Source of the DNA: a virus
DNA: 20,821 nt
Virus record (IMG/VR): IMGVR_UViG_3300010885_034643
Location: 1 to 20,821 of that record
Direction: 5' to 3' (one strand)
The translations under genes and the position numbers were made by a program. The notes beneath the pieces are model-generated. The model was not told the DNA's origin. It saw only the letters and a list, made by a program, of their open reading frames with translations, and made no database searches. The first letter of the stretch is position 1, and each line of letters starts with the position of its first letter. Positions 1 through 18,305 of this stretch are shown piece by piece.

Positions 1-1148
1 CCTTGAGTAAGCAATTCGATTTCTTCTGTGGTGAGACTAGAAGTATCAAAATCGGAAACGTGCAAGTAAGCCACAGAATTGGTGGCCCTGCCCCAAGCCA
101 TTCCTTCCTTTTCTTGAATCATTGACTTGATATTGTCTGGCATAAAAGCATAAGGATTTTTCAATGATGAGTACTCCTCATCACCAGCTTCTCCAAAGGC
201 TATCTGCGCTGTCCGCCTCACATTCCCAGCTACAACGCACTTTCCGATATAATTCATCAGATCGACAATATCACCACTGCTCAGTGTCTTGCCGATCTTC
301 CTATCCAAATGACTTCTGAACATTTGGTGCATATCAGATAGGATATTAGCTCCAGCAGCAGTTCCACCAAACCCGCCGATTTGTGAACCAGCTGGTCTGA
401 TCTTCTCATAATTAAAGACCACTTCACCATTGCCCGCCTTCTTGGTGTAAGAATGCAGCAAGGTTCTCAGTGAGTCGACCCAGCCTTCACGGCTATCGTG
501 TACTTCATATTCCACATATTTGGCTGGATTTGGCCGTTGTATCTCTACTTGGCCAGCGCCTTTGGTGTCGAAACCGATACCGACACCAAGCATACTCATG
601 TCCATCATGAAGCAGTACGGTTCGGCTGGGTCTGTATGGCGTTTCATGTCTGTGGATGTCATCCCACAGTTGTTTAGAGCGGCTGAACCTCTGGCAAACA
701 TGAAATCTGTGCCCATCATCCATAGGCCGCGACCAGGTGGAAGGAATTTGAATGACCAAATTCTTTCGAACATTTCTTGGGCACTATCTTGTGCTCGCTC
801 ATAGTCCCATGGGATGTGTATTGAGAGGCAGTGTCGTCGCTGTATTTCATAGCATCCTTCTACTACTCTTTTTGCTACGTCTAAGAAGGATTCTTTCCCG
901 CCTTCTGCTTTATCTCTGGAGTATGTGCGGTAGAATACGAATTCACCTAACCCGTTGAATCCGAAGTTTGGTTTTTTGTTATTATATTGTTCTAAAAATG
1001 TGCTTGCGAGCTTAAATGGTTTACATTCTTTGTGGGCTGAACCAAAGTAGGTTTCACCTATGTTGACTATTTTGGGCGTTGGTTTTAGTAGTTTACTGCG
1101 GGTGCTTGATTTTGATTCTGGCATGTTGGGTTCAACCACTATCGACAT
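1..1148 (-). CDS. nrdJ: Adenosylcobalamin-dependent (class II) ribonucleoside-triphosphate reductase, N-terminal part, runs off the left edge
   Basis: The minus frame from the ATG at 1148 stays open to base 1, giving 382 residues with no stop; the C-terminal part lies outside the window. The protein would reduce ribonucleotides to deoxyribonucleotides with coenzyme B12 as radical source, supplying phage DNA synthesis. Residues 137-146 read PPGRGLWMMG, followed by ALNNC with Cys161, which corresponds to the first redox cysteine of the monomeric Lactobacillus-type enzyme. GNVRRTAQIAFG at about 308-319 is another family signature. The thiyl-radical cysteine and its partner should lie further downstream and are not visible. 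The start is supported by AGGAG seven bases upstream. The family assignment is firm; choosing class II rather than class I rests on the combined PPGR/ALNNC/GNVRR pattern. A nucleotide-metabolism gene directly downstream of baseplate genes is unusual but known in phages. Confidence 0.88.
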   Translation of the reverse strand, partial: MSIVVEPNMPESKSSTRSKLLKPTPKIVNIGETYFGSAHKECKPFKLASTFLEQYNNKKPNFGFNGLGEFVFYRTYSRDKAEGGKESFLDVAKRVVEGCYEIQRRHCLSIHIPWDYERAQDSAQEMFERIWSFKFLPPGRGLWMMGTDFMFARGSAALNNCGMTSTDMKRHTDPAEPYCFMMDMSMLGVGIGFDTKGAGQVEIQRPNPAKYVEYEVHDSREGWVDSLRTLLHSYTKKAGNGEVVFNYEKIRPAGSQIGGFGGTAAGANILSDMHQMFRSHLDRKIGKTLSSGDIVDLMNYIGKCVVAGNVRRTAQIAFGEAGDEEYSSLKNPYAFMPDNIKSMIQEKEGMAWGRATNSVAYLHVSDFDTSSLTTEEIELLTQ

Positions 1149-7863: not shown

Positions 7864-10800
7864 TTAGCTCACCCATGCGTTGTAACTGGTGGAGACACTT
7901 TGACGGTTTCTCAGCTCGATTAATTGCTCATCCATTAAACTGATCATTTTGTCACCTAAGATGCTGCTTTGTTTCTTCATCTCTGATAACTCGTAAAGCA
8001 TAGCAGCTAGAACGTCTTTCTCTCCAGAATTCTGAGAATCTGTCGTACCACCCTCAGTTCTGGTGGTCGTCTTAACATTCTTTATTGGCTCAGCTGCAGC
8101 ACCTAACTTAGGAGATAAGAAGCCAGCTAATATGGCTTTAAAAGGATTTGACGACAAGTCGAAGATAGCTGTGTTCAGCCTCTCTACTGAAGCTGTTATC
8201 CTGTCAATCGGGTCTATTATCAAACTAGCGGAATCAGTAAGACTCGTACTCCCCTCTGCCAACACCTGCGATAGTTGGCCAATAATGCTGGAGTCTACCG
8301 ACCCAAGGCTAGTGAACGCTGCAAATCCGGCAGTAATAGAGTCACCGGCACTCTTTAATGCATCACCTATAGCACTCAGCACAAGAGACTGTTGAAGCAT
8401 TACATTCAAGTCGAACGCATTGAGGAAGCCATCCAATGCCGTTAGTACGCTCCTGCTCGTCACTACGGCTTCAGCCGCCCCAGCTATATCAGCAACAGCA
8501 GCGACCATGATCTTGCTGCCCTCTGATATATCAGTCATTAACTTTCTGTATTTCTCTCCGAATTCGACTGGCACATTAGTCGCTGACAAGACACCCATGT
8601 CGCCGCTTATCTTATTGACATCAAGTTCAGTATCGCCACCAAGGCCAAACCATCCAGCTATTGTTTTTGCTGCACTAGCTATTAGCTTTGTCACTGGGTT
8701 ATTCATAAATCCTTCATATAATCCACTTATGATATTACCACCTATTTCCATCATTTTAGTTGATGGTGAAGCGATACCAAACATGCTCAAGATTCTGCCA
8801 GCTGTATTGTCCCAAATCCACTGGCCAATATCAGCAAGACCATTGATAACACTCTTAACACCCTCGATAAGACCATATATCATATTCATACCAAGATCAG
8901 CCATAACAGTGGACGGCGAAGCAACACCCAATAATCTGACAAGCCTTCCGAAGGTATTATCATATATCCAATAACCTATATCTATTAATTTAGATAATCC
9001 CCATTTTATGCCCATAACGAGCCCTTCAATGAGCGCAACCCCAAGATCAGTGAATGCTTTTCCTAGACCATATGCCAAGTCAGTTGTCCACTTCCAAATA
9101 TTTTTCTCAATGTACTCTATCGAACTCCACCAAAAATTAACGATATCAGCAAAAGAAAGTTTTGAGACGTCAGAGAAAAAATTCGAAATAGCCCTATAAA
9201 CCCTATCAAACGCATCACTTATGCCATTTATCACCCATTGTACAGTCTCAAAACTCATAAGCCAATCATATATTAGACCAAGACCTTCGATAAAAGGAGA
9301 GACCAATTCATCAATTATCCATGACATCCATTCATAAACTTTGGTTAAAACAACCACAAAAGCTTTAAAAGCGATATTAGCCAAATAAAATATCACTTTA
9401 GCGATCTCCATAAATCCAATAACCATTCTCTTAACAATCAAGTACACTGGGACAATCACAACAGTAAGTGCAATCATAATAACCTTAGCCAAAGTCTTGA
9501 ACGCTGTCCATAAAGCATCCACGACCTTACAAGCAGCGTTAAAACCGACCATAATATACCCACCAAGTACCTTTAGCCCACCATACACATAATCAACCAC
9601 ACTGCGCACCGACTCAAACCGCTCATATAGCTTATAAACAGCAGCAGCAGCAAGAATTAACCATCCTATAGGTCCAAAAAGAATACCAAGAGAAATAGCA
9701 AGCGCAGCCACAGCAACATCCATAATCTTCAAGTTGCTCACGAACTGCTTAATGGCCGGAATGATCTTATCAATAATGAACCTTACAAAAGTCAGACTCT
9801 CAGCCCATTTGATCAGCAGTTTTACCTGCTCCAAAACCTCCTGCCCATACGTGACCAGATAAGTCCCGAACACTTTTAACTTGTCATAAAGATACTGAAC
9901 TGCATCCCCAACACTGTCGAACTTATAATAAAGAATAGTAAGAACAGCAACCACCGCTATGACCACCAAGACATATGGGCTTAATAATGCGCTACCAAAA
10001 GCTAACGCCGCATTAAAAGCACCCAATGCAATAGTACTCAGACTTGTAGCCCCTGTAAAGATACCCATCACTGCACTAGCGGCACTAACTATAACGTTTC
10101 TAACGAGGATGGCTCTATTGTACAAAGCTGTCCTTATCGTAGCTAAACGTTCCGTTAATCCTAGCTTCTCCAAAGATGCCTTAAACGCGTAGACACTAAT
10201 CGCAGCTGAAATTAAAACGCTTACCAGAGAAAGTAGAGCGCCACCAGCCAGAACCAGCCCCGCCACAAAAATCCGGACCATCTTGGCTGTGACACCATTG
10301 CTTTCGCCAAATTTTCTTAATTGGTTTCCTAACCTCTCGACCACAGCAGTGATCGGTTTTAACACAAAACTTACAGCTTGGAATATATCATAAAGACCTT
10401 TGCCAAGAACACCATTAAGCAATCCAAAGAAAGCGTTAATCCTAGTTCTAAGCATGCCGATTTGGCCGGTCAAAGTCCCCATTGATTCTGTAAAATCGCT
10501 AGCAGCCTGCTTGGCCTGCTTGACCTTCATAAAATCTTCAACTGCTTTTAAATCGTTCTTATTTAGTTTTCCAGATTTCGCAGCCTTATCTAATTCAGCG
10601 TTCAGTCTCAATTGCGCGTTAACTTGCTTTTCCGTTATGCCAGTCATGCTGGCAACAGCTTTCATTTGCGCTTTGACACGAAAAGCTTCCATGGGATCGT
10701 TTTTAGCTTTTTCTAAATCCTCTAGCGTCAGCCCAGCAGTCTTGGCCGCTTTAGCAATGAGCATAGGCATAGCAGTTAATCTATCTTCCGGCGTTTTCAG

Positions 10801-11937
10801 CGTTAAGCCTAATTGCTTTGCAAATGAGTCAAATAATACCATCTTTTGAGGGTCTAAAGCCACTTTTAGTGACGCGGCCATTTCATCAGCATCAGCGCCT
10901 ATACTCTTAGCAAAACCCTTAAAAATAAGCTGAGACTGTTTAAATATTTCCATCGATGTGACAAGGTTGCCATTGGAATCCCTTGTACGCCCAGCAAGTT
11001 TACCAAAAGATATCTCTAAATCAACGACCGATACAGATGTATCATTTAAAACACTTGCTACATCTTCCGAATTGAGCCCATACTTCCTCATAGCATCAGC
11101 GCTATAACCCATTATACGGTTAAATGATTGAGTATCACCGCCAGCGAATCTGTTTTGTCTGCTGAATTCTGCTAACTGTGTGATACCGACACCAAGATAC
11201 TGATTGGCCTTTAAAATAGAGTCACCAAGTTCGACCATCTGTTCCTTCGGCATCGCCAAATTACCCAGCGCCTGAACTACTTCATATGCCTTCTCAGATG
11301 CAAGGCCAGTGGATAATGCTAATTGCCTTGAAGTGGCGACCAAGCCAGTTTGAGTGTCATATAGCCTAAAATTCGTAGTCACGAAATTCTGAGTCGCTTT
11401 ATCGGAATCTACAATATTTCTTAAAATTAACAGACCGACTTGGCGGAACCCATCAAAAGCAGCTCGTAGACGCATAGCGCCTTCAATCTGATCATCGATA
11501 GCTTCAACAGCCGATTTTAGATTAGAATTTACTTCTTTTGATATATCAACGTCATTCTGTAAGAGTTTATTCTGCTCTAAGTGGCCCTTGTTTTTAGACT
11601 TTACAGCGTCGTTTAAAATTACAGCTTCTTTGTTAATATCCTTAAATGTTTTTAAGTCTTTTTCTTCTAGCGATATGGGTTTTGACGTTTTCGCGATTTG
11701 GAGGTCTTTGGTCTGTTTACCGAATAGCGAAAATATCTTGTTAACATCTTTAAAAGTAGTCAGACTGTTGCTGCCCAAGTTTGCAATAGTACCAACAGCT
11801 TTTTTAACGCTACTAGAAACTGTTCCTTCTAAATTTATAAACTTCTTTGATATATCGTCAATCGCGTTATCAGCCAAACCGCGTTCAAGATTGAGTTGCA
11901 TTGTCAATGCAGCTACTGTCGGGTCAATCTCAGGCAT
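7864..11937 (-). CDS. Tape-measure protein
   Basis: 1357 residues, the longest gene here. It sets tail length and occupies the tube lumen. The N-terminal 160 residues are helical and coiled-coil-like. Residues about 180-450 resemble the tape-measure globular region (LALSTGLASEKAYEVVQAL, AEFSRQNRFAGG). From about 550 to 880 there are several hydrophobic segments (for example 556-585, 653-671, 741-767, 815-836) able to span or insert in membranes. Residues 981-1030 and 1031-1080 are a 50-residue tandem repeat built on DIGxWIxDNTxGR and GxASPSTxM, a motif common in tape measures. A second pair near 669-696 and 769-796 shares YxxFxSVxxxVxYxYxxLKVxGxY. AGGAG precedes ATG 11937 by nine bases. The C-terminus is helical. 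Confidence 0.92.
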   Translation of the reverse strand: MPEIDPTVAALTMQLNLERGLADNAIDDISKKFINLEGTVSSSVKKAVGTIANLGSNSLTTFKDVNKIFSLFGKQTKDLQIAKTSKPISLEEKDLKTFKDINKEAVILNDAVKSKNKGHLEQNKLLQNDVDISKEVNSNLKSAVEAIDDQIEGAMRLRAAFDGFRQVGLLILRNIVDSDKATQNFVTTNFRLYDTQTGLVATSRQLALSTGLASEKAYEVVQALGNLAMPKEQMVELGDSILKANQYLGVGITQLAEFSRQNRFAGGDTQSFNRIMGYSADAMRKYGLNSEDVASVLNDTSVSVVDLEISFGKLAGRTRDSNGNLVTSMEIFKQSQLIFKGFAKSIGADADEMAASLKVALDPQKMVLFDSFAKQLGLTLKTPEDRLTAMPMLIAKAAKTAGLTLEDLEKAKNDPMEAFRVKAQMKAVASMTGITEKQVNAQLRLNAELDKAAKSGKLNKNDLKAVEDFMKVKQAKQAASDFTESMGTLTGQIGMLRTRINAFFGLLNGVLGKGLYDIFQAVSFVLKPITAVVERLGNQLRKFGESNGVTAKMVRIFVAGLVLAGGALLSLVSVLISAAISVYAFKASLEKLGLTERLATIRTALYNRAILVRNVIVSAASAVMGIFTGATSLSTIALGAFNAALAFGSALLSPYVLVVIAVVAVLTILYYKFDSVGDAVQYLYDKLKVFGTYLVTYGQEVLEQVKLLIKWAESLTFVRFIIDKIIPAIKQFVSNLKIMDVAVAALAISLGILFGPIGWLILAAAAVYKLYERFESVRSVVDYVYGGLKVLGGYIMVGFNAACKVVDALWTAFKTLAKVIMIALTVVIVPVYLIVKRMVIGFMEIAKVIFYLANIAFKAFVVVLTKVYEWMSWIIDELVSPFIEGLGLIYDWLMSFETVQWVINGISDAFDRVYRAISNFFSDVSKLSFADIVNFWWSSIEYIEKNIWKWTTDLAYGLGKAFTDLGVALIEGLVMGIKWGLSKLIDIGYWIYDNTFGRLVRLLGVASPSTVMADLGMNMIYGLIEGVKSVINGLADIGQWIWDNTAGRILSMFGIASPSTKMMEIGGNIISGLYEGFMNNPVTKLIASAAKTIAGWFGLGGDTELDVNKISGDMGVLSATNVPVEFGEKYRKLMTDISEGSKIMVAAVADIAGAAEAVVTSRSVLTALDGFLNAFDLNVMLQQSLVLSAIGDALKSAGDSITAGFAAFTSLGSVDSSIIGQLSQVLAEGSTSLTDSASLIIDPIDRITASVERLNTAIFDLSSNPFKAILAGFLSPKLGAAAEPIKNVKTTTRTEGGTTDSQNSGEKDVLAAMLYELSEMKKQSSILGDKMISLMDEQLIELRNRQSVSTSYNAWVS

Positions 11938-13311: not shown

Positions 13312-13585
13312 GGAATTATTACACCTTAGATCGAATAGGGATCAAGTAGTTTTCCTATATTTATGCTTTAACGATTCAGCAACCAAAACATACGGACTAA
13401 AATCAGAGAAAGTGCCAGAAGATGAAGCTGATAAAATAAAACAATCATATGGCACATTAAGGAATATGAAAAAAGAATCACATATACTATGGCTTAAAGA
13501 AAACGCACCAATAGCTTATAAGCAAGCATATAGAGAACTAGACCTAGCTTCTTATACGCTTCTTGGAAGATATCAACTCAGATAA
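13310..13585 (+). CDS. Small plus-strand protein of unknown function (91 aa) nested in the minus-strand series
   Basis: 91 residues with mixed charge and mostly helical prediction: YLCFNDSATKTYGLKSEKV, then EDEADKIKQSYGTLRNMKK and ENAPIAYKQAYRELDLASY. No signal peptide, membrane segment or known motif is seen. Codons are A-rich and look protein-coding, and the 232-base gap it fills has no minus-strand frame. ATG 13310 overlaps the divergent hub-gene start by two bases. A possible AAGGA lies twelve bases upstream, which is far. The 3' end overlaps the converging primase gene by 42 bases. No function is assigned. The position inside a late operon suggests an independently expressed insertion (moron-like) or an antisense-regulating gene, as inference. 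Confidence 0.6.
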   Translation: MELLHLRSNRDQVVFLYLCFNDSATKTYGLKSEKVPEDEADKIKQSYGTLRNMKKESHILWLKENAPIAYKQAYRELDLASYTLLGRYQLR

Positions 13586-14599
13586 TTTTATGATCTCAGT
13601 AATGCTGATCTTTTTAATGTTCTTTTCGAATATGTTTCTGATCTGAGATTTTGTATGTCCATGCTTTTCATATAGCTCATTCCAATCTGTCTTATCGGCT
13701 TCGCTCGCTGGAGGGATCGAATAAAAGATCGGAAAATTTAAGCTTGCCAATAGGTGGTAGTTCTGGATGATACTTTTTATGCCAGCCGCATCACTGTCTG
13801 GGGCTAGAATAATACCTTTCTTGGGATTCAATATTCTTATCTTGATCAGCTGATCTGGAGTTAGTGCAGCCCCTCCGGACGCCAAGGTCTGCTCTCCTAG
13901 AGTGTGCTTATCGAAAATAGCCTCTGTGATGATGATATAACCGTTCATTTCTATATCATCAAAACCATATAAAAACTGGCCTTTGGATGCCGAGACTTTG
14001 CCGATCGTTTCGCCTTTATTATTCGTGATGTTCGGATTAGGGAAGGAGAAGCGTTTATTTAAATATGATCGGCTTTGCCAGTATACGACCGTCTCGAATT
14101 CGTAGTATGGCCATATCACTTCGGTTCCAAGAAATCGCAGATCGTTTTTATCGATATCATCGACAGTGTAAGATCTTCTTCCTAGCCATTTTATTAGCAT
14201 CTGGGCGAGTTCTTCATTTTGATAATCTACAAGCTTTTTATTTTCTGGCAGTGTGAGTTCATATTCTACGAATTCTTTTTTGTTATCTGTGTATTCTGCT
14301 TCTGCCCCGTCCAGAAGAATCTTTATAGCTTCTGCTGTGGAGCATTTTTCGTATAAACTAACAAACCTGATGATATTACATGATCTTTTGCCTGTTTTTG
14401 GGTTAGGCTTACCCGCCCAGCTATCGTCTCGCCAGTCGTGACAAACGCCTTTTTCTGGGTTTATGTTAAAATGGTAGCCGGTATCGCCATTCAGCGGGTT
14501 GCATATTATGAATTCTTCGCCTTGGCGACGTTCTCTATATTCGAATTTTTTCTTTATATAAGCTACTATTTTCTTTGGTGGTATTGATATCTTAGACAT
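13544..14599 (-). CDS. DNA primase, Toprim type, atypical zinc site
   Basis: 351 residues. The Toprim core is clear: YIIITEAIFDKHTL with Glu226, and IILAPDSDAAG with Asp268 and Asp270, the metal-binding acidic residues that catalyse primer synthesis. The N-terminal part resembles the CHC2 zinc region of DnaG-type primases (FIICNPLNGDTGYHFNINPE, then KGVCHDW) but keeps only Cys33 and Cys53, with Asn and Trp where His and Cys would be expected, so zinc binding may be lost or altered. It would make RNA primers for the phage replisome. No helicase domain is present. The upstream ribosome-binding site is weak. A replication gene between virion genes is unusual. Confidence 0.82.
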   Translation of the reverse strand: MSKISIPPKKIVAYIKKKFEYRERRQGEEFIICNPLNGDTGYHFNINPEKGVCHDWRDDSWAGKPNPKTGKRSCNIIRFVSLYEKCSTAEAIKILLDGAEAEYTDNKKEFVEYELTLPENKKLVDYQNEELAQMLIKWLGRRSYTVDDIDKNDLRFLGTEVIWPYYEFETVVYWQSRSYLNKRFSFPNPNITNNKGETIGKVSASKGQFLYGFDDIEMNGYIIITEAIFDKHTLGEQTLASGGAALTPDQLIKIRILNPKKGIILAPDSDAAGIKSIIQNYHLLASLNFPIFYSIPPASEADKTDWNELYEKHGHTKSQIRNIFEKNIKKISITEIIKLSELISSKKRIRS

Positions 14600-15461: not shown

Positions 15462-15611
15462 TTATCGCATCTGCTTCTTCTCAGCTTCAGCTTTGTCTTT
15501 TAGCTCTTTATGGATACGATTGAGCATCCATGCTCTATCTTCAGAAACCATCTGGTCTTGTTCAAATAGCGACAGATGCCCATAATACTTGAGCTGGAAC
15601 TGCTGTTCCAT
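15462..15611 (-). CDS. Short frame downstream of the gp26-like gene, likely C-terminal frameshift extension
   Basis: ATG 15611 to TAA 15464-15462 encodes 49 residues (MEQQFQLKYYGHLSLFEQD, then an ERW-like DRAWMLNRIHKEL helix). The same frame is open back to 15717, so it overlaps the end of the upstream gene by 77 bases. The residues before the ATG (QYDRQYEHL) continue the same helical style. The ATG itself has only a weak GAG upstream. Short proteins with an R-W-x-x-x-R-x-x-K-E helix often accompany phage gp26-type and tail-assembly chaperones, either as separate genes or as frameshift products. I favour a ribosomal frameshift at 15655-15663 producing a long form with 64 extra residues. An independent small gene is the alternative. 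Confidence 0.6.
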   Translation of the reverse strand: MEQQFQLKYYGHLSLFEQDQMVSEDRAWMLNRIHKELKDKAEAEKKQMR

Positions 15612-15639
15612 CAGGTGCTCGTATTGCCTGTCATACTGC

Positions 15640-16599
15640 TCAGGACTTTGATGGGCGAAAAAATGTGTCTGTAATCGGAAGTTCGATTGAGAACTCCTGA
15701 TTACAGCTCGGGCATTCTATTTGGATACTGCTATCAATACCAGGTGTATTGTCTTTCATCCACTCACGAATAGCAGACGTATCCTGAGCATGCAGACGTT
15801 GCACGAAAGCCTTGATTTTTAAAGGATCGGTGCTGCCGAGAACACTGACGATTACCTTTTCAAGATTCTCTGTGACTGCTTCATCTAGTTCTTCGACCTT
15901 ATTCTTTCGATCGAATGGGTTGCGTTTGGTTGACTTAGCGACGGACTTAGTATTCTTTCGTTTGCTAAGGATCGCATTAGCATCACCAGCACGCAAGTAG
16001 CGTATTTCGACCCAAACATCGGCCCCAGTCATGTTTGACATGTATGGCAGATGTATCTTGAACGGTTCTGGTCCAAGGTCTGGATCTGCTGGAATGACCG
16101 TCGAGTTGAGTTCATTTAGATCATATGTGTGCATGCTCATCACTGCACAATTAGTATCTGGGCATGTTACGGAAAATTCGTAAAGATTACCGTATGTGAT
16201 ACCTCGCAGGAAGTATAGCAAGTAGACTCTGTCACCAAGCAGCAAGTCTACTGGATCAAACCCATTTGGGAATCTGCAGCATTCTTTGAATAGGTAGTCG
16301 ATTGACTGCCCTGTTGCTGCCAGTCTTTGTGTGGCTAGGACTTTTTCTGCTGTCTGTCCCATTGCTTTTACTTGGACTACACCGTCAGGCCATCCGTAAT
16401 ACAGTCCTTTGCTGGGAAGGGAGCATTCTTCCCATGGGATCAATTGTTCTTGAGGCGCATTTAAAATGGCATCTAAGATCGAGGCGTTATTTGTAATATC
16501 GCTCGGCACTACTTTACCATAGTGCGCGCTGAAATCGTTGTCAACTTGATTGACTTTTGGCTGATCTTCGCTACCATCCAACGAGATGTTTTCTGACAT
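15640..16599 (-). CDS. gp26-like baseplate/tail assembly protein with zinc-ribbon-like cysteines
   Basis: 319 residues. Core residues about 50-145 (IPWEECSLPSKGLYYGW, then LATQRLAATGQSIDYLFKEC and LLLGDRVYLLYFLRGITYG) match the T4 gp26 baseplate family by pattern. Two cysteine pairs, C146-C151 (CPDTNC) and C296-C299 (CPSC), would build a zinc ribbon across a long insert with a basic stretch (SKRKNTKSVAKSTKRN) and an acidic helix. The protein probably helps tail or hub assembly. AGGAG lies six bases before ATG 16599. The gene ends at TGA 15642-15640 shortly after TTT TTT CGC, a plausible slip site feeding the downstream frame. It may therefore exist in short and long forms, as tail assembly chaperones do. 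Confidence 0.75.
   Translation of the reverse strand: MSENISLDGSEDQPKVNQVDNDFSAHYGKVVPSDITNNASILDAILNAPQEQLIPWEECSLPSKGLYYGWPDGVVQVKAMGQTAEKVLATQRLAATGQSIDYLFKECCRFPNGFDPVDLLLGDRVYLLYFLRGITYGNLYEFSVTCPDTNCAVMSMHTYDLNELNSTVIPADPDLGPEPFKIHLPYMSNMTGADVWVEIRYLRAGDANAILSKRKNTKSVAKSTKRNPFDRKNKVEELDEAVTENLEKVIVSVLGSTDPLKIKAFVQRLHAQDTSAIREWMKDNTPGIDSSIQIECPSCNQEFSIELPITDTFFRPSKS
15655..15663 (-). promoter_or_regulatory. Candidate programmed +1 (or -2) ribosomal frameshift site
   Basis: On the minus strand six T (15663-15658) followed by CGC form codons TTT TTT CGC, six codons before the zero-frame TGA at 15642. A +1 slip of the Phe tRNA from TTT to TTC keeps, and even improves, its pairing, and enters the frame that is open to 15462. 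A -2 slip reaches the same frame. Nothing else marks the site, and no clear downstream pseudoknot was identified by eye. Confidence 0.45.
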
Positions 16600-16659: not shown

Positions 16660-17193
16660 TTATAGAGGATTTGGGTCGATTTCTTCGGCCCAATCATATG
16701 TGATAGTGAGATCAACGAATTTTAAGTCAGAACTGGTATACGTTAGATCTCCGTGCTTAATGACTGAAAGCCAGCTCCCTATCAATTTAAAGGTCTGCTG
16801 AATTTGGCCAGTTTGATCGTATACCTTTATTACTGATTCTTTTTTATAGTTGCTCGCAGTCTTTAGACCAGTCTCTTCCCAGACGGATTTACGCCATCTT
16901 ATTAGATATGGCAATAAATAATCAGTATCGTAAAAAGTCAGTCTAATATCATCGTATACAGCGCCACTTGCGAATTTATATTTTAAACTGGCACCGGTAT
17001 ATTCTTCTTTTTCGAATGTTATACTCGGCAGCGAAACGTCTTTTGCGTAGACTAAAGCTGTGCCTTTCGCTGCATTTTCCTCGAACAACGTTGCTACCTC
17101 CCAAGTGAAGGTTGGTATAAACGTGGTAAGTGACAGGGCTTCGTTATCACCAAACCCATTAAATTCGGTTCCTACAACATTAAATCCTGCCAT
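16660..17193 (-). CDS. Tail-tube-like protein, gp19 family, paralogue 3
   Basis: 177 residues. It begins MAGFNVVGTEFNGFGDNE, like its two neighbours, and has the gp19 tube pattern: an N-terminal strand, VSLPSITFEKEEYTG at about 53-67, IRLTFYD at 83-89, and a C-terminal strand pair VDLTITYDWAEE. T4 gp19 forms the hexameric rings of the inner tube. This copy diverges from the other two, has an aromatic/acidic character, and may be a tube-end or baseplate-adjacent variant rather than the bulk tube subunit. AGGAAAA precedes the ATG, one base after the upstream stop, so the two genes are expressed together. Confidence 0.75.
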   Translation of the reverse strand: MAGFNVVGTEFNGFGDNEALSLTTFIPTFTWEVATLFEENAAKGTALVYAKDVSLPSITFEKEEYTGASLKYKFASGAVYDDIRLTFYDTDYLLPYLIRWRKSVWEETGLKTASNYKKESVIKVYDQTGQIQQTFKLIGSWLSVIKHGDLTYTSSDLKFVDLTITYDWAEEIDPNPL

Positions 17194-17194
17194 T

Positions 17195-17719
17195 TTACTT
17201 TTCCTGTATGAATCTGTTATATCTTACGGACATTTTGACTTCTGATAATTCATTATCAGCATATGATAAGTCACCAGGATCGTATGATGCGATCGAACAA
17301 TCGAACAATGTGTACTTCAAATATGGCAAACCAGCACCATCTTCACGCTCTATAATAGTGATAAAACCGTAACCAGTGTTACCATTATCCTTGAATTTGC
17401 TACCAATCTTTCCGCCAAAAACATTTGGTAGTTTTTCAAATATCAGTCTGTTAACCACGCTGTCATTAGAAGCAGAAAGTACCTCGTAGAATACCACATC
17501 AATTGGTTTATACTTGTGTTTACCAGGTAGAGATATGTAGTCAGCGCCATTATGGGCTACCATCTCGTCGTATTCAATGGACGGTAAAGTTATACTCTTG
17601 ACATTAAGATTCATGTCAGTGTCTGCAAACGACATAGATACACTAAATCTATGCTTTCTACCGACTTCCATCATATTACCGGGACCGGTTCCACTACCGT
17701 TAATATTGAATCCTGGCAT
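17195..17719 (-). CDS. Tail-tube-like protein, gp19 family, paralogue 2
   Basis: 174 residues starting MPGFNINGSGTGPGNMMEV, then RKHRFSVSMSF, nearly the same opening as paralogue 1. ITLPSIEYDEM, KYKPIDVVFYEV and a closing VKMSVRYNRF strand complete the gp19 pattern. An insertion, GKIGSKFKDNGNTGYGFITI, is specific to this copy. It follows a terminator and therefore probably receives read-through or its own promoter. The ribosome-binding site (GAGAG) is weak, which suits lower expression than the main tube gene. A role as a tube variant (initiator, terminator or minor tube) is inferred. Confidence 0.78.
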   Translation of the reverse strand: MPGFNINGSGTGPGNMMEVGRKHRFSVSMSFADTDMNLNVKSITLPSIEYDEMVAHNGADYISLPGKHKYKPIDVVFYEVLSASNDSVVNRLIFEKLPNVFGGKIGSKFKDNGNTGYGFITIIEREDGAGLPYLKYTLFDCSIASYDPGDLSYADNELSEVKMSVRYNRFIQEK

Positions 17720-17734
17720 AGTTTTCTCTCATAT

Positions 17735-17760
17735 AAAAATGGGGAGCATTCCTGCTCCCC
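17735..17760 (-). terminator. Intrinsic terminator after the first tube gene
   Basis: GGGGAGCA (17741-17748) and TGCTCCCC (17753-17760) form a perfect 8-bp, GC-rich stem with a four-base loop. On the minus strand it is followed by ATTTTTA. It lies 12 bases past the stop of the tube gene at 17772 and before the next tube paralogue, so it should end most transcripts there. Confidence 0.85.
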
Positions 17761-17771
17761 TCACATTATTA

Positions 17772-18305
17772 TCAGCTAGCTGTACGCAGTGCTCTGTCGT
17801 ACTTCATTGTAGCTTGGCATGTCATCAATTCATTGGCGCTATAATCTAGCTCCTGCCAATTAATTGTTTCTGGCCATGTACCGTACATTGTCCATGCTTC
17901 AGAGACCCCACCCTGGCCGTTCAGCATCGTCAATTTGCCTTCTCTTTTATATTGAGAAGGAACTGCGACATTGATCGATCCTAAATCGCAGACTGTGTTT
18001 AACCACTGATAAAGACCAGCTGAGATGTCCGGTGATTGTTCAGCGTCATACCATGTCAATGTGACCGGTTCCCATTCTTGCTTACCAGCGTAGTAAATGA
18101 CTTCTTGGTTGTGGTGCTTATCAGCAGAAGTAAACTTGAATGAAGGTCTTGCGGCTGATTGCAAGTTTAAAAGCTCTTCTGGCCTCCAAGCTCCACTGCC
18201 GCGACCAAGAGTAGCGAATACCCAGCGGTGTTTTCTTCTGATTTCAAGCGTATTCGTTGGACCGCGTCCGTCCCCACCAGCACCGGTTACGTTAAAACCT
18301 GGCAT
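17772..18305 (-). CDS. Tail-tube protein, gp19 family, paralogue 1 (likely the main tube subunit)
   Basis: 177 residues. It starts MPGFNVTGAGGDGRGPTNTL, then EIRRKHRW, with the gp19-like core RPSFKFTSADKH at 53-64, EWEPVTLTWYDAEQSPD at 76-92, and a closing CQATMKYDRAL strand. It forms, by family, the stacked hexameric tube inside the sheath. TAGGAG lies seven bases before ATG 18305. The gene is bounded by terminators on both sides (after the sheath and 12 bases downstream), so it likely has its own transcript. That fits a high-copy protein directly beside the sheath, and is why I call it the main subunit. The alternative is that paralogue 2 is the main one. Confidence 0.82.
   Translation of the reverse strand: MPGFNVTGAGGDGRGPTNTLEIRRKHRWVFATLGRGSGAWRPEELLNLQSAARPSFKFTSADKHHNQEVIYYAGKQEWEPVTLTWYDAEQSPDISAGLYQWLNTVCDLGSINVAVPSQYKREGKLTMLNGQGGVSEAWTMYGTWPETINWQELDYSANELMTCQATMKYDRALRTAS

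Follow-up and report, generated by a model that had tools for sequence, protein, structure and literature searches.

Does the gp26-like gene on the minus strand of IMG/VR virus record IMGVR_UViG_3300010885_034643 (analyzed over the 20,821 nucleotides at positions 1 to 20,821, hereafter the window) end at its stop codon, or does part of its product continue in a second frame? The locus very probably encodes a frameshifted pair of tail assembly chaperones (TACs) of a contractile-tailed, jumbo-type phage, with a short protein and a C-terminally extended one made from a single gene by a +1 slip at UUU UUU C. The two reading frames and their retention in relatives, the slip motif, the relatedness of the extensions in several groups and the gene order are shown here; that ribosomes slip, how often they do so, and the chaperone function are inferred.

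Reading frames at the end of the gp26-like gene

The short form matches PF12322 (T4_baseplate; E=2e-9, 37.9 bits against a curated cut-off of 24.5), and the gp26-like protein also matches the baseplate hub family phrog_150 (E=9e-13). At the DNA level, a search among known phages gave no match to the window. The 0 frame on the minus strand, read directly from the sequence, ends ...ACA TTT TTT CGC CCA TCA AAG TCC TGA. As the original prediction described, a second frame overlaps the gp26-like gene and is open past the TGA at 15642; it runs from 15716 to a TAA at 15464-15462 and is bounded upstream by a TAG at 15719-15717. The two frames share the run TTT TTT C at 15663-15657 (TTT at 15663-15661, TTT at 15660-15658, C at 15657), after which the +1 frame reads TTC GCC CAT CAA AGT, or FAHQSPEQYDRQYEHLMEQQ.... 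The translation of the predicted long form takes TTTC as a single step.

Conservation of the junction in close relatives

Close relatives were drawn from IMG/VR (8 in a first scan, 42 in a profile scan), one of them, L007, on a contig of 231,672 bases; 40 of the 42 extend to the junction and are 48-99% identical. All 40 keep TTTTTTC and the open +1 frame, with an extension of 65-91 residues where it is complete, and this conservation is far beyond chance. In the 22 distinct relatives tabulated both junction phenylalanine (Phe) codons are TTT, and elsewhere in the gp26-like genes of the relatives 139 Phe codons are TTT versus 122 TTC. The 0-frame stop of the relatives falls 6-15 codons past the slip site. 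Between the slip site and the equivalent of an ATG at 15611, variability is highest at the third position of +1-frame codons (0.29/0.41/0.55; permutation p = 0.0055; 22 sequences). Conservation of codons 15612-15657 in the second frame had been proposed as a check, and they are indeed conserved, which favors frameshifting.

The predicted C-terminal extension

Eight residues of the extension (E18, L23, K24, E33, E40, R42, W44, and R48) are invariant in 22 sequences. AlphaFold2 predicts three helices for the extension, with a predicted local distance difference test (pLDDT) score of 92, and gives the fused long form a mean pLDDT of 82.6. Profile searches with the extension alone assigned no Pfam or PHROG family, a PDB sequence search found no relative, and a structure search gave weak matches only. 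A structure search with the fused-protein model picked out viral models (SP-15 and T4-like hub assembly proteins), and its top PDB fold match is the HK97 tail assembly chaperone 2OB9, weakly (E=0.61, probability 0.28).

Profile comparison relates the window extension with 98.4% probability to that of the SP-15 type, and with 82.9% (E=9e-6) to that of cyanophages with -1 junctions. By this measure, extensions reached by opposite slips, +1 and -1, are homologous. Matches to the extensions of the immuto group (10.9%) and the LR756511 group (24.8%) are weak, so that the homology of these to the window's extension rests on position and architecture. Of the 22 window-group extensions, 3 match phrog_634 directly, likewise weakly (E=0.013 at best). 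The gp51-type C-terminal domain is linked to the long form through the cyanophage extension, whose annotated fragment, located downstream at the -1 site in S-SM2, matches phrog_634 with E=2e-26. In T4, gp26 and gp51 both match PF12322, and the C-terminus of gp51 also matches phrog_634 (E=1e-23), a domain that gp26 does not have. Because gp51 comprises PF12322 plus the C-terminal domain and gp26 comprises PF12322 alone, in T4 each of the two forms has a gene of its own. Of the outcomes named at the outset as support, the T run and downstream frame are kept in close relatives, and a fused form occurs in T4 gp51.

The same architecture across the gp26/gp51 family

Relatives in annotated phages, found with tblastn, include those of Bacillus phage SP-15, LIS04, GXN1, Flavobacterium phage immuto, RaK2, 121Q, PA5oct, Atu_ph07, and others, and are usually labeled baseplate hub. 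Among the true relatives whose junction was inspected, all but T4 have a hidden extension. The link of the extension to tail chaperones, first suggested from the look of its helix, is upheld by the short and long architecture in every gp26-family group examined and by the natural fusion in T4 gp51.

Further IMG/VR scans brought the +1-frame junctions to 111 distinct cases in four groups, nearly all at UUU_C/U, which occupies the corresponding position in the SP-15, immuto, and LR756508 groups. In all 111 the overlap contains a cognate +1 slip codon, and the frame stays open for at least 25 codons beyond the stop or, where the contig is shorter, up to its end. Distinct -1-frame junctions number 89, annotated phages included, and each carries T_TTT_TTC or T_TTT_TTT; they belong to cyanophages, RaK2, 121Q, PA5oct, Atu_ph07, and others. 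On a tree of 58 short-form proteins the -1 label has to change three times, and well-supported branches force at least two of these changes; its long branches and many open deep forks do not let the ancestral direction be read from it. It is probable that programmed frameshifting in this homologous chaperone family has changed direction at least twice between -1 (U_UUU_UUC) and +1 (UUU_C, UUU_U, CCC_A), with T4 substituting gene duplication, while a corresponding C-terminal domain was kept, and that many large phages carry the +1 branch, which annotation has overlooked.

Individual branches depart from the common site. A small SP-15-like clade (L078, L081-L083, L087, and L088) has a Phe codon followed by A, and its only cognate site is CCC_A; the slip site there has apparently shifted from UUU_C to CCC_A, two codons later, and in L083 and L087 a Phe slip at the junction is impossible. 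In L105 and L109 the C-terminal domain forms an apparent separate open reading frame (ORF), with its own ATG within about 10 bases of the gp26-like stop, and frameshifting has possibly been lost.

Alternative explanations for the junction

The original prediction left the frameshift as either +1 or -2. In a -2 slip at the same junction the second Phe tRNA would move back two bases on TTTTTT and one extra Phe would be added, and -2 frameshifting has a precedent in phage Mu (PMC5009743). All members of the window's own group keep TTTTTT, the first Phe codon included, although that codon is not required for a +1 slip confined to the second one. Across the wider family, 48 of the 111 distinct +1-frame junctions (for example TTC TTT C, AGC TTT CTT, and TTC TTT T) do not permit -2 re-pairing, and because of this +1 is taken as the common mechanism. 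The frameshift itself is upheld, with +1 favored as the better fit and -2 at the window's junction improbable. The T6 run could also be a site at which RNA polymerase, rather than the ribosome, slips; its invariance in the window's group would suit such slippage, but sister branches with TTC TTT C or TTT CTT, in which T runs reach at most 3-4, use the same frame, and slippage by the polymerase is hardly credible.

That the extension might instead be a small gene of its own, started at the ATG at 15611 and perhaps coupled to the upstream stop, is very improbable. An ATG does stand at the equivalent position in 16 of 22 sequences, and in another branch L105 and L109 carry the domain as a separate ORF. 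The remaining six sequences have TTG, CTG, CTC, or CTT at that position, and L036 has no ATG, GTG, or TTG in the +1 frame from the slip site to about 20 codons beyond it. The amino acids of the extension are conserved also in the stretch ahead of the ATG, and no Shine-Dalgarno sequence stands out before it. The ATG was thus rightly judged a poor start, and the relatives do not carry a separate gene with a strong start, which again favors frameshifting.

Several observations weigh against a programmed +1 slip in the window. With TTTTTT invariant, a -2 slip retains a small probability in its own group. In the 22 sequences, downstream RNA structure gave no consistent signal (z from -4.1 to +1.6) and no Shine-Dalgarno stimulator stood out upstream. 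The tape measure gene is separated from the gp26-like gene by three genes, farther than usual. The background expectation of some slip-capable codon in so long an overlap, 71 of 111, is not small, so what carries the argument is that the site keeps its position and the frame is conserved.

Gene order and proposed function

Tail assembly chaperone genes usually lie between the tube and tape measure genes. SP-15, LIS04, and immuto have sheath, tube, gp26-like, and tape measure genes in that order, and nothing larger than a tiny annotated ORF intervenes; the immuto tube gene is annotated as a tail completion protein. In the window, the sheath gene is followed by three tube genes, the gp26-like gene, genes for a 274-residue protein, a primase-like protein, and a 439-residue protein, and the tape measure gene (Table 1). 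The first part of this order is kept in the relatives, which likewise carry extra genes. From homology to T4 gp26 and gp51 and from this position, we infer that the gp26-like gene and its extension form a TAC-N/TAC-NC chaperone pair.

Table 1. Features of the gp26-like locus and of the neighboring tail genes in the window.
Feature	Position	Strand	Details
gp26-like gene, short form (TAC-N)	15640..16599	-	319 residues, C-terminus FFRPSKS-stop
Predicted long form (TAC-NC)	15462..16599	-	378 residues, +1 shift at TTT_C
Putative slip site TTT TTT C	15657..15663	-	tRNA-Phe on UUU would re-pair with UUC (+1)
Predicted +1-frame extension (TAC-C)	15462..15659	-	65 codons and stop, FAHQSPEQYDRQYEHLMEQQFQLKYYGHLSLFEQDQMVSEDRAWMLNRIHKELKDKAEAEKKQMR
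0-frame stop TGA ending the short form	15640..15642	-	7 codons past the first TTT
ATG once proposed as start of the extension, rejected	15609..15611	-	non-ATG in 6 of 22 sequences
Three tandem tail tube paralogues, directly upstream	16660..18305	-	phrog_4542 tail tube protein, three matches
Tape measure protein, downstream	7864..11937	-	phrog_8462, phrog_58, others (tail length tape measure)

Most ribosomes would read the gp26-like gene to the TGA and release TAC-N. In a minority, tRNA-Phe would move at UUU UUU C from UUU to the overlapping UUC, one base forward, and these ribosomes would then stay in the +1 frame until the TAA at 15464, yielding TAC-NC, whose C-terminal domain is predicted to have three helices. 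If the pair works as lambda gpG/gpGT does, the tape measure protein would be coated by many copies of the short form and a few of the long one, the extra domain of the long form would recruit tube subunits, and both forms would depart from the finished tail.

Further features of the region stand apart from the frameshift. The three tandem tube paralogues are kept in relatives and recall the trio of tube clades reported in Vandenendeviridae. Inside the tail module lies a gene resembling DNA primase, with a Toprim domain (13544-14599, minus strand); relatives have a similar-looking gene at a comparable place. At 6-1148 (minus strand) the window end truncates a B12-dependent class II ribonucleotide reductase gene, of which the beginning is present.

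Relation to known systems

With chaperones of the lambda gpG/gpGT type (Xu et al., 2004; reviewed in PMC5009743) the locus shares a short and a long form from one gene, a slip near the 3' end, a small C-terminal domain, a location between tube and tape measure genes, and slippery homopolymer codons. Lambda slips -1, whereas the window would slip +1 and its short form is a 319-residue PF12322 protein; the likeness considered here is one of architecture. G-T frameshifting is widely conserved, with T4 the exception (2016 review, PMC5009743), and T4 gp51 is reportedly absent from the particle (PMC3004832). T4 gp26 and gp51 belong to the same family as the window gene, PF12322, but in T4 the two forms come from two genes and no frameshifting is used, whereas the window has a single gene. 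The T4 proteins in the study of Vladimirov et al. (2022) are reportedly gp26 and gp51. By its title and according to citing papers (PMC12846349, PMC10885494), that study identified the TACs of T4-like phages.

A frameshift in the gp26 family had been expected to be less familiar. This does not hold for the -1 direction: poly-T -1 signals in T4-like TAC-N genes are already cited to Vladimirov et al. (2022) in PMC12846349, and only the +1 form seems new. Frameshifts of the -1 poly-T type are also given for the TACs of Vandenendeviridae and Andersonviridae (PMC12846349), and like those of the cyanophages, whose C-terminal domain is homologous to the window's, they slip in the opposite direction. 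A +1 shift has been proposed for the haloarchaeal myovirus HSTV-2 (PMC5009743), which shares with the window the +1 direction, a tail chaperone, and a contractile tail; HSTV-2 is of a different lineage, and the comparison covers these features. The apparent novelty lies in the conserved +1 branch and in the change of direction between homologues.

Implications for large phages

Many genes annotated as "baseplate hub" in large phages can on this reading be taken for tail assembly chaperones whose C-terminal domain the annotation lacks. The family would also offer a natural series in which homologous genes reach the same two products by -1 slippage, +1 slippage, or duplication, and in which the determinants of slip direction could be compared across few bases, A TTT TTT C versus T TTT TTC.
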